NCBI GenBank assembly: GCA_034387635.1 | Contig: JAOANU010000008.1 | Coordinates: 496,001-560,000 of the forward strand | DNA from: Rhodosporidiobolus odoratus | Lineage: Eukaryota; Basidiomycota; Microbotryomycetes; Sporidiobolales; Sporidiobolaceae | Reading direction: 5' to 3' | DNA length: 64,000 bases | Shown here: one piece after another, positions 48,530 through 61,824 of the stretch | How positions within the stretch are numbered: position 1 is the stretch's first letter | Layout of the letters: each line of letters starts with the position of its first letter | Notes under the pieces: model-generated | What the model was told of the DNA's origin: nothing | The model's database searches: none | The model's input: only the letters and a program-made list of their open reading frames with translations | Program-made: the position numbers and the translations under genes

Positions 48530-50087
48530 GGAATGTCACTCAAGCTCAACTGGAGATACAGTACGTACTTGCGGAGGGTCTGATAGAGGGGTGGATGTGC
48601 GGGTAAAGGCTTGTCCTGCGCTGCTGGTGCGGACTGCATGGCGGTGGAGGTCGATCAGCGGATGCGGTCAGAAAGGCAAGAGCGGTGGAGGAGCGGAAAG
48701 GAAACATACCGAACAGTCAAACAGCAGAAGTTGGATGATCGGTTGTCAAGGCTGGGACCAGGAATGCGGAGCTCAGGAGTGCAAGTTGTGGGCAGTCGAA
48801 TTCGAAACGGGGGCGAGATGTCCGATCAACGGAGAAGAAAACGTCGGGCGTGGAGTGTGCTACCTGGGTGGTCGTAAGTGTAGGAAGAAAGAAGAGTGCG
48901 TCGGAACACCGCTCAGCAGTGAAGGAACCAGTGAAAGGCGAAACGAATGGAAAGAAGCGAGATGGCTTGACAAGCGGCAAATTGAAGACGGTGTCGCGGC
49001 GAAGGTGGGCGAGCAAGCAGGCGAAAGGAAGAAGAACAAAGGTTGGCCTTCATATCCAGGTCCAGCAGCATTTTAAAGGCGCAAGGCAAGCAGCTGGAGA
49101 AGGAAGGCCGGTGATTCGCCGGATGGGGCAACTCTGCTCATTTCGACTGGCGGGTTCCTCGGCGACTCGTGGCTGGCCATTCGAGCACGCGGATGCTTAA
49201 AGAAAGAGGGATCGCCCGCCCTGGAAGGGCTGAAGAACAAGGCAGCCTCGACAACCTTCAAGGAGACCCCCTTTCCTCGCTTGGCCGTGGCAATGGTGCG
49301 CAGGCTGCGTCGGGGCCGCGATGACGGGCGCGTATCGCAAGAGATCTGCGCCCGTCCTATCGCAAGAGATCTGCGCCCGTCCCGGTCGCATTCAGCGGGC
49401 GCTCGACGGCGATAGCGCATTCATCGTTGGGAGATTCGGGAGCAGTGAAGGGGAGGGAGCATGGAAAGGCGGGGAGCTGGAAGATGTGTCCAATCTGACA
49501 TTGAGACGCTGGTACGTCCCGGCCCGTCTTATACTGCGGCTCCCAGTGGCGAAGTGAGAGAGCACGACAGGCGAATTTGTTGACGAATTTGTTGACGGGT
49601 AGAAGGGAGACTTGGATGAAAAGAGAGGATAAACGAAACGGACAGACCCGAGGGACAACATGGCTCACCGAGAGGGCCTAGTAGGACGCTGCTGATTCTG
49701 CTCTCGCCTAGTAGGTTTGGGAGGAGAGGGTGAAAATACACCTGTAAGTTCCTGCGAAGGTCCAAGCGAGGTGGGGGGCCGACTCGCTAACAACGCATCG
49801 TCCACAGGCTGTACTCGAGGAATGACTTGTAGACCCGACTCTTCACGGCTCGACAGGTGGAGTCCGAAAGCGAGGACGAGTGAGGAGGAAAAAGAGGAAG
49901 AGACTTGACGATGTCACTTTCTCGCTTTTACTACATACCTGCACGATCTTAGCTGTTGCTGCTGGTTCAGACCCTATCCGTCTCGGTCTCTCGACCACAA
50001 GCCTCGAAGCTCCCCTCGCCCTCGTTGTATTCCTCCTCCACTCGTCTGCATCTCTCCCTCTCCTTGCCACCTCGGTTCGCCATCAGG
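48530..50087. other. Divergent intergenic region upstream of CENP-A
   Basis: About 1.5 kb between two divergent starts. It contains the 25-bp tandem repeat described separately. Long antisense frames here, including one at 48450-49076 that overlaps the coiled-coil gene, have no ATG or no motifs and are not supported. Confidence 0.5.
49333..49382 (+). repeat. Two perfect tandem copies of a 25-bp unit
   Basis: The unit TATCGCAAGAGATCTGCGCC followed by CGTCC occurs at 49333-49357 and again, identically, at 49358-49382. A further GACGGGCGCG lies just before it (49323-49332). It lies about 700 nt upstream of the CENP-A start. Confidence 0.95.
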
Positions 50088-58681: not shown

Positions 58682-61600
58682 TCAAGCGTGAACCCACTTG
58701 CCCTTCCCCTCTGCCCACTGCGCCAACTCAGCAGCCGACGCCTCCTCGAACCGCTTCACATCCGGTACCCCACTCGCTTCGACACCACCTTCCGCCGATT
58801 CAGCCTCGACACCTTCCCGCTCTGCGACAAGGACGCCAAACCCAGCCCCGCCAACCGTGGTCGAGTAGGTTTCGAAGCCAGAGGCGTGGAGGGCTTCGCG
58901 GAGGGAGGCGAGGGAGGAAGGAGGGAAGTCTGGCAAAGAGCGAGGGTCGGGATGAGCCTCGGGCGAGCTGAACGAGGAGAAAAGGAATCTACGCACCGTC
59001 CGGGACGATAGTCACTGCGCAACCACCACCTCCAGCGCCGGTAAGCTTAGTCGCTAGTCCCCAGGGATGTTCCCTCGTCTTGCTTCGCACCGCTTCGAGC
59101 GCTGCGTGTCCAACACCGAGGGAGACGAGGTGCTGGTGGTTCTCTTCGACTAGTTCAGAGAGCTTGCCGATTTGCTCAGAGCGAGAGAGGGTGGTGGAAG
59201 AAAGGGTTGAGTGGGCAGTTTCGCAGATGGTTTGGATGGAGGCGAGAAGGGGAATGATCGTATCCGGTTCCTGCTCGAGCAGAAAGCCCAGGCAATCAGC
59301 ACACAGCGTCCAGGATACAGGTGTAGGACCGGCTGGAGTAAGAGCGCACCTCGAGCTTCCTCTTCGCGACTCCAGCCACCAAAGTCTTCGTATCCCTCGG
59401 CACCTTGGTGTCGGTCAACAAGAACCTGACACTCTTGAACCCCTTGACACTCTCCAGACTCCCTTCGTTCCCCTTGATCGCCCGCTTGAACGCGATGGCA
59501 CCACCGAGAGTCGCAACGGTGTTGTCCACCCCGGAAGGCGTACCGTGAATGACCTTTTCGGCGAGGAACGCCCAGGCGTTGACGGCTTCAGCATGAGATG
59601 GGTCGACAGGGGCACCGGAGGAGGAAGTGGCGGAGGAGGAGGGTAGAGGAAGAACGCCGTGCGTGTAGAGGAGGGACGAAGCGGCCGCTACTGAGAAGGC
59701 CGCCGAGGAGCCCAAGCCCGCCGAGATAGGTAGCGAGGACCTGACTGTATAGGACTGGGCTGGCCGGTTGTTCGGTCCAGAGAGATGCATGTACAAGTAG
59801 AGGAACGCCTGAGCGGCTTGAACAGCCTTGAGGACGTCGACCTTGATAAACTTGTTTGCGAGGAGGGTGAGGAGTTCTTGGTCGGGGACAGTTTCGGCAC
59901 GAGGCGGCTTGCCGGGCTGAGAGAGAAGGGCTGGCGAGAGCTTGTCCCAGGGGAGAGAGGAGATGTCCCAGGTTTGGGAGTAGCCGAGGTCGGGCAGTTC
60001 GAGGGAGAGAAGACCGTCGCTACGAGACTCGGCGAGGCAGTAGCAGCGGAGGTCGATCGCGCCGGCGATAGCAGTCTATCGAAGTAATATAAGGCATGTC
60101 AGCTGGTGCGGGACACTCGGGCTGATAGGGAAAACGCACGACACCGTGCACGACGGCATGTTCTCCAAACAGGATAACCTTCCCAGGTGCACTTGTAATA
60201 AGCTTCTTGACCTTCGCTTGTCCAGCAGCGCCGTTCGCAGCGCTGACTGCCCCGTTTGATAACTCCACCACATCCTTGCCCGCTGGTCGAATCCTTTCAA
60301 GCACCGCGCGGCTTCCGGCCTCGTCAAGAACGCGAACGGCCCCAGCCTCGAGCAAGGCTGCTTCGAGATCGTCGAGCAGGTCGTCGACGTCCTCGATACC
60401 GACACAAAGGCGGATGAGGTCTTCGGGCAGGTTGCGGGCGGCACGGACGGCAGGGTCGATAGAGGCGTGGCTGTATAAGCGTGGCGATTCCGAGTCAGCA
60501 GAGCGCCGCGGTTAGAATGATGTGAATAGGATACGCACGACATCAGGCACGGCATCGAGATCAACGAGTTGATGCAGCCGAAACTGACACTGATTCCCCA
60601 CAGCCGCGTACTGCCAACAATCCTCTCACTTAGCTGCACATCTCCAGTCTCGAAGGACAGAACCGCTCCTGGTCCTTTGGCGATCCTGTCATGAATCTCT
60701 TTGCCGGGGAAGCCCGGTAGACCGGGATAGTTGACTTTGAAGCCGAGATCGTTGAGGTAGTTGGCGATGCGGATAGTGTTGGCTTGTTGCTTGTCGATAC
60801 GGAGGGGGAGGGTCTTGACACCTCGAAGGAGGAGGAAAGAGTCGAAGGGGGAGAGGCCGTTGCCAATCGAGTTGATGGTGAAGGCGATGCCCTGCTCAAT
60901 GCCGTGTCAATCCTAGCTTCTGAGCGTGCGAAGTGAGCAACCGTACCTTGGCGACGTCGTCCCTGTCGCAGCAAATTACACCGGCCATGAGATCGTGGTG
61001 CCCGGAGAGGTACTTCGTGCCGGAATCGTAGACGACATCCGCGCCCAGCTCCAGCGGCCTCTGGAGGTACGGACTCATCATCGTGTTATCGACGACGATA
61101 ATCGCGTCCTTCCTGTACTTCTTGACGAGGGTTGAGATGTTCTCCAAGTCCGCAATCTGGAGAAGCGGGTTGGTCGGACTCTCGAGAAGAACCATGGCGA
61201 TGTTCTGCGTCTCGTCTTTCAGGAAGGGCAGGAGCGACTCGGTCTTGGTAGTATCAACGTGGTGAGTCGTGATTCCGTTGTGCTGCTTGAGGTAACCGAT
61301 GAGGCGGTTCGAGCCGCCGTAGAGGTCGTTTCCGGCGATGATGCTGTCGCCGGGCTTGAGCAGGCGGAAAATGACGTCGAGAGCACCCATGCCGGAAGTA
61401 ACAGCGAAAGCATGGCGAGCGCTGGAAATCTTGGCAATGTGGTGTTCTGCGGACAGAGGACAAAGTCAGAACGAAACAAGCAAGCAAGAAAAGGTCAATT
61501 GAGACGGACCAAGGTGACTCCTAGTCGGGTTACCGCTCCGAGTGTAGTCGTACTCTCCTCCCATACCCTTGAAGGTGGCAGTCTGGTAGATAGGTACGGA

Positions 61601-61824
61601 GCTAGCGCCAAACTGATCTTTGTGAGCCGGAGAAGGCGAGTCGACGGAAGCGGCGAGAGTAGCGAATCGCCATGGTCGAGCTGCGGAGGCACGTCAGACA
61701 CACTTGAACTGGTGATAGGAGGGCAGAACGGGAGCACACCTCGCAAGAGAGAAGAGGAGAGCGAGACAGTGTCGGATGAGGCGGTGGGCGGGGAGATGGG
61801 GCTCGATTGACCGGACGAGGCCAT
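58682..61824 (-). CDS. Fusion protein: cystathionine beta-lyase joined to mevalonate kinase
   Basis: Eight exons on the minus strand (61824-61740, 61680-61510, 61446-60947, 60891-60539, 60470-60140, 60075-59350, 59270-58997, 58929-58682), all phases consistent, give 895 residues. Residues ~30-410 are a PLP-dependent cystathionine beta-lyase: FGASSVPIYQTATFKGMGGE, GNDLYGGSNRL, VVDNTMMSPYLQRPLELGAD, VYDSGTKYLSGHHDLMAG with the PLP lysine, and NLPEDLIRLCVGIED. A ~50-residue linker rich in Ala, Val and Glu follows. Residues ~461-895 are a GHMP-fold mevalonate kinase: ITSAPGKVILFGEHAVVHG, LPISAGLGSSAAFSVAAASS, NTVATLGGAIAFKR and KLTGAGGGGCAVTIVPDD. The first enzyme makes homocysteine from cystathionine; the second phosphorylates mevalonate on the way to sterols and carotenoids. 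Exon 5 covers the junction with no stop and no in-frame ATG. In yeast the two are separate proteins (Str3, Erg12). Confidence 0.9.

Follow-up and report, generated by a model that had tools for sequence, protein, structure and literature searches.

A lyase-kinase fusion gene of Rhodosporidiobolus odoratus and its place in a known basidiomycete family

Two papers published in 2012 report a gene in which a cystathionine beta-lyase is fused to a mevalonate kinase (MVK). In its excerpted text, the Ganoderma lucidum genome paper (PMC3342255) describes a metC-MVK fusion in 12 basidiomycetes, Laccaria bicolor excepted, and notes that in 7 species the MVK part contains a conserved insertion of 16 residues; the corresponding portion of the other paper (PMC3468542) has STR3 fused to mevalonate kinase in every basidiomycete examined apart from Postia placenta. 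As far as these excerpts go, both sources give the fusion as single-copy in basidiomycetes, and both pose the question of why two unrelated steps remain joined. The fusion recurs in the accessible portions of PMC3720577 and PMC4129116, nothing on it was found in those of PMC10269642, PMC11506715 and PMC13412983, and ERG12 is listed without domain detail in PMC4393869. In the literature searched we found no functional tests of the lyase-kinase fusion. An initial annotation of the DNA discussed here was not aware of any description of the fusion; the excerpts of the two 2012 papers (PMC3342255, PMC3468542) show that it is not new.

The gene examined here lies in a stretch of 64,000 nucleotides from contig JAOANU010000008.1 of Rhodosporidiobolus odoratus (the window). 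On the minus strand of region 58682-61824, 8 exons and 7 introns give, by spliced translation, one protein of 895 residues, with a coding sequence of 2,688 nt including the stop, a predicted mass of 94.6 kDa and no internal stops. The introns, every one of the GT-AG type, measure 55-79 nt each and 455 nt in total. The domain order is an N-terminal cystathionine beta-lyase (PF01053 at residues 49-409, E 6.1e-123), a linker predicted to be disordered and a C-terminal mevalonate kinase (PF00288 at 579-671, PF08544 at 754-816). The features, in the order in which they are translated, are as follows.

61740..61824, minus strand: exon 1, with the start codon and the leader at the N-terminus of the lyase half (spliced translation)
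61510..61680, minus strand: exon 2, first part of the lyase domain, PIYQTATF...YDYTRSGNPTR (spliced translation, Pfam)
60947..61446, minus strand: exon 3, lyase core with the PLP lysine K230 in SGTKYLSGHHD (spliced translation; alignment, K in 121 of 121)
60539..60891, minus strand: exon 4, C-terminal domain of the lyase, to ISMPCLMS (spliced translation, Pfam)
60140..60470, minus strand: exon 5, the junction exon, with the last ~45 lyase residues, the variable linker and kinase motif 1, SAPGKVILFGEHAVVHGV (spliced translation, alignment)
60076..60139, minus strand: intron 5, 64 nt, GTGCGT...TAG, phase 0, after the valine of kinase motif 1 (spliced translation)
59350..60075, minus strand: exon 6, core of the mevalonate kinase, including GLGSSA (S603), E653 and D664 (translation, alignment)
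58997..59270, minus strand: exon 7, C-terminal part of the kinase with KLTGAGGGGC (translation, alignment)
58682..58929, minus strand: exon 8, C-terminal end of the kinase with its tryptophan tail, and the stop codon (spliced translation)

Elsewhere in the window there are a nuclear RNase P RNA (RF00009; 44591-45204, minus strand, scoring 30.6 bits where the gathering score is 28, over the full model length), an open frame of 836 codons that matches the Diaphanous GTPase-binding domain (PF06371; 2008-4515, plus strand) and is probably part of a formin gene, an open frame partly matching fatty acid hydroxylase (PF04116; 28295-29668, minus strand) and a tandem repeat of two perfect copies of a 25-base unit (49333-49382).

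An independent annotation agrees with this gene model from end to end, since the deposited R. odoratus protein P0001 (JCM11641_002566) likewise has 895 residues and differs from the window protein at 6 of 895; the start codon in exon 1 is also the start of P0001. The best 120 of 1315 matches, all of these 120 fused, align along 88-100% of the query, which puts the fusion far beyond chance, and on sequence grounds we regard a single, real fused gene in the window as confirmed. The proposal of the initial annotation that one gene joins the two enzymes is thus borne out by the model and by the deposited record of equal length, its exon 5 of 331 nt, holding the lyase end and kinase motif 1, matches the gene model, and the sequencing error in exon 5 that it had allowed for is very unlikely, because P0001 and many relatives carry the same fusion.

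It might still be supposed that mis-annotation joins two genes here and that the kinase is produced alone, from a cryptic promoter or by way of a new exon. The junction argues against this, as the end of the lyase and the beginning of the kinase lie within a single exon. Methionines occur at residues 1, 68, 105, 170, 208, 209, 239, 365, 369 and 576 of the fused protein, so that, in agreement with what had been noted from the letters alone, no in-frame AUG stands between residue 369 in the lyase and residue 576, which is in the kinase beyond motif 1 (at 463); the two ATGs that exon 5 contains are both out of frame, and reading upstream in the same frame through intron 4 to the next stop (ORF 60020-60511) adds no Met before the kinase, so that a kinase translated separately from this transcript would have to begin at a non-AUG codon. 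A Met between the lyase end and the kinase does occur in 39 of 121 fused proteins, which favours a separate kinase product to that extent, as do ten related records that read straight through GEHAVVHG[VI] into a valine and in most cases stop shortly beyond it. In the window, intron 5 starts with GTG at exactly the position at which these ten records read on, and the simplest reading, from the protein records, is that this site would be an old, shared intron position just past the fusion point.

Transcript-sized contigs from other species also bear on the two-gene reading. Among the best 120 of 1315 matches, seven fused proteins are encoded on contigs of 2.7-3.1 kb with 95-410 nt outside the open reading frame (one, P0020, may lack its 5' end). 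That remainder would have to hold both UTRs and introns, as against 455 nt of introns in the gene described here, so the seven contigs probably represent spliced transcripts in which both halves are present, which counts against two genes. All of the best 120 of 1315 relatives are fused, in place of the two separate genes in close relatives that the initial annotation had named as grounds for doubt. The ambiguous kinase-only records P0176-P0178, described below, lean slightly the other way; overall we consider a two-gene arrangement extremely improbable and take the fused gene as the basis of what follows.

The fused gene appears to be the only mevalonate kinase gene in this genome (24.8 Mb, 45 contigs). 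Of four matches to TIGR00549, two, with 104.6 and 48.8 bits, fall on exons of the fused gene and the others score 34.3 and 32.8 bits; no exon reaches the whole-protein cut-off of that model, because the genome search runs exon by exon. In this exon-by-exon profile search we found no second recognisable mevalonate kinase. The nearest other locus of the PLP family, C9:50946-51674, has 153 bits to TIGR01329, and its main ORF, taken unspliced, is fitted better by gamma-synthase and gamma-lyase models than by the beta-lyase model, with none above cut-off. No clear second cystathionine beta-lyase was found in the genome, the other PLP loci being judged from unspliced sequence.

The initial annotation had suggested that proteomes be checked for proteins with both domains. 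In the whole-protein search both PF01053 and PF00288 were found in 120 of 120 of the best 120 of 1315 matches, and these labelled relatives come from Sporidiobolales, other Microbotryomycetes, Mixia, Atractiella and Melampsora rusts, and further from Bartheletia, Dacrymycetes and many Agaricomycetes. They span Pucciniomycotina and Agaricomycotina, and Malassezia P0146, from the kinase-half search, adds Ustilaginomycotina; the groups are for the most part those to which we take these genera to belong, Rhodosporidiobolus, Vanrija and Bartheletia having been looked up. Because the length limits of a whole-protein search favour fused proteins, the two halves were also searched separately, and because the relatives are the best 120 matches of each search, rare exceptions to the fusion could be missed.

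In the kinase-half search (best 120 of 6373 matches), the organism-labelled kinase-only records are from organisms that we take to be Mucoromycota or ascomycete yeasts, and no basidiomycete is among them. Thirty-five kinase-only records have no organism label: 7 keep remains of the lyase or linker, 19 begin past motif 1, as exon-sized reads or partial sequences do, and 6 resemble stand-alone kinases, none of the 6 with a lyase tail. The kinase-only P0176-P0178 are ambiguous, either fragments of the fusion or basidiomycete kinases that stand alone, and a rare stand-alone kinase may therefore exist in basidiomycetes. The lyase-half search (best 120 of 7995 matches) returned stand-alone lyases in many non-basidiomycete fungi. 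Kinase motif 1 is retained in 12 of these 120 records, including Pleurotus P0239 and P0253 of Vanrija, a tremellomycete by lineage lookup, and the 12 therefore look like truncated models of the fusion. Other basidiomycete records from the same search, without motif 1, include Austropuccinia P0251, in which kinase sequence is still present, and Hericium P0255, which stops within the lyase; in Tulasnella P0327 the C-terminal domain of the kinase is present. The fusion appears to mark the phylum Basidiomycota as a whole. Many fused relatives (best 120 of 1315) are named cystathionine beta-lyase in their records, and the fusion may explain cases in which mevalonate kinase is missed or misnamed in basidiomycete annotation. 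In Ustilago maydis, MVK was the only enzyme of the pathway that KEGG failed to predict, according to the excerpted text of PMC7396576, in which no mention of the lyase-kinase fusion was found.

In quick tree searches without bootstrap, on records hand-picked for spread, the fused proteins fall on one side of a single branch for both halves, with 34 fused and 13 stand-alone records for the kinase (SH-aLRT 96) and 35 fused and 24 stand-alone records for the lyase (SH-aLRT 99). Malassezia P0146 is a long branch, and the lyase tree joins it with Vanrija P0253, also long. These trees agree with a single fusion that preceded the split of the three subphyla, and with common descent of the fused genes since then; the excerpt of PMC3342255 places the fusion in the ancestor of Basidiomycota. 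A separate observation concerns Mortierella, where two records of Mortierella alpina and one of Mortierella sp. GBA30 have a stand-alone kinase and a stand-alone lyase on contigs of equal length (P0189/P0279, P0191/P0291, P0236/P0268; the locus tags of one record are KVV02_006121 and KVV02_006124), which suggests that the unfused genes are closely linked there. Linnemannia hyalina and Entomortierella parvispora show no such linkage on their long contigs, and neither do most other organism-matched pairs.

Both halves had been described from the letters alone as intact, with the PLP lysine and the kinase motifs in place, and residue conservation supports this. Across 121 aligned fused proteins (the best 120 of 1315 matches and Malassezia P0146), K230, D205, Y128, R390, K467, E473, H474, S603, E653, D664 and G802 are conserved in all 121, Y74 and R76 are conserved in 119, with a gap in the other 2, and the position of T703 has Ser in 74 and Thr in 47. 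The equivalents of rat MVK Lys13, Glu19, His20, Ser146, Glu193 and Asp204, numbered as in rat through alignment with PDB 1kvk, are found in 121 of 121, and the aligned lyase and kinase residues presumably have their generally accepted catalytic roles. Strict motif patterns, all six together, were passed by 70 of 120 fused records, most failures falling at the GLGSSA or motif-1 pattern. P0001 exceeds the cut-offs of both NCBIfam equivalog models, TIGR01329 (530.7 bits, cut-off 487.5) and TIGR00549 (206.6 bits, cut-off 163.05). The best solved match to the lyase half is PDB 1ibj (residues 35-408, E 2.5e-108), which we take to be Arabidopsis cystathionine beta-lyase, and that to the kinase half is 1kvk (E 5.9e-72), which we take to be rat mevalonate kinase; both are stand-alone enzymes, and K13, S146, E193 and D204 of 1kvk all have equivalents in the kinase half of the window protein.

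Between the halves, the linker is 12-68% identical to that of the window protein in nine relatives, as compared with 46-76% for the kinase and 61-87% for the lyase, and the span between the motifs used is 45-73 residues in the 103 of 120 fused proteins that were measured. An AlphaFold model of P0001, run as a monomer with 53 sequences and poorly modelled at N-terminal residues 1-79, has a mean pLDDT of 82 and a pTM of 0.55, with pLDDT under 50 at linker residues 434-451. A variable linker, low pLDDT and a pTM of 0.55 fit two folds that have no fixed pose relative to each other. The model has confident helices at 870-888, and the Trp tail is conserved; we considered this tail as a part specific to the fusion and rejected the idea, as stand-alone fungal kinases end in a similar tail (a strict pattern matched 78 of 121 fused proteins and 5 of 77 kinase-half records without a lyase tail). 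Yeast Str3 is said to be peroxisomal, and we also asked whether the fusion hides a C-terminal peroxisome signal; this is unsupported, a PTS1-like ending being found in 0 of 120 fused proteins and 0 of 120 lyase-search records.

The N-terminal half would be a PLP enzyme that converts cystathionine to homocysteine, and the C-terminal half a GHMP kinase that phosphorylates mevalonate. A floppy linker would tether the two and leave their active sites independent, and as the main consequence two steps that have no other relation would have their expression, stability and location in common. We infer both the independence and the regulatory effect, and think it most likely that each half does its own reaction and that the tether only couples their amounts. 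Deletion of STR3 in a basidiomycete would then also remove an isoprenoid step.

A stronger form of coupling has the fusion selected for its physical effect, for example a fixed higher-order complex built upon the lyase tetramer, or allosteric signalling that links sulphur with isoprenoid metabolism. PLP lyases of the Cys/Met family are tetramers and mevalonate kinases are dimers, so that a fusion forces a defined assembly, and the occurrence of the fusion across three subphyla, its two active sites preserved, would be expected of such selection. The linker, however, differs among relatives in both length and sequence and is predicted to be disordered, the pTM is low and the substrates of the two enzymes are unrelated, all of which make physical coupling distinctly unlikely.

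Possible, if doubtful, is a regulatory explanation in which the fusion puts homocysteine supply under sterol-responsive SREBP transcription and so links methyl-donor and sterol production; it would be a regulatory form of the logic put forward in the initial annotation, in which homocysteine and SAM supply would feed sterol C24-methylation. The single published hint of coupling that we found comes from the excerpted text of PMC9810662, according to which SREBP targets the mevalonate kinase gene g3941 in Ganoderma lingzhi, and g3941 rises in an SREBP overexpression strain; for the related G. lucidum, the portion of PMC3342255 available reports the fused gene as the only MVK homologue. If g3941 is the fusion, lyase expression would follow sterol control. 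On the other hand, a mention of the lyase or of a fusion was not found in the excerpt of PMC9810662, the SRE-like patterns tried in a simple scan had no match within 1.1 kb upstream of the fused gene, and yeast and other fungi cope without the fusion. The same 1.1 kb holds four CANNTG sites and no match to the CACGTG, Met31/32 or CYS3-like sites tried in this weak scan. As the sole cystathionine beta-lyase would be translated with the sole mevalonate kinase, SREBP-driven demand for the kinase could oblige a matching homocysteine capacity and couple methyl-donor and sterol supply across the phylum, a suggestion that we offer tentatively and judge unlikely.

The gene described here is very probably the Rhodosporidiobolus copy of the basidiomycete STR3/metC-MVK, the product of one ancient fusion, inherited vertically and encoding an obligate two-activity protein with independent domains. 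The fusion has been known since 2012 and is widespread in Basidiomycota, and the gene in the window is an ordinary member of this family. By comparison with the excerpted description of metC-MVK in PMC3342255, it has the same domain order and a similar size (reported mean ~886 aa), and is likewise the only MVK homologue found; metC-MVK is reported as the only best match to cystathionine beta-lyase, which may hold here too. The gene in the window differs from that set in coming from the Sporidiobolales. The STR3 fusion, as given in the excerpt of PMC3468542, is the same fusion, again single-copy, with the kinase found nowhere else in basidiomycetes. That excerpt names Postia placenta as an exception, whereas in current records Postia P0060 is a fused protein of 909 residues, and it restricts fungal stand-alone kinases to Ascomycota, whereas we find them in Mortierella, Umbelopsis, Absidia and other non-Dikarya. 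To the published account of this family we therefore add a fused Postia protein in current records and stand-alone kinases in Mucoromycota.
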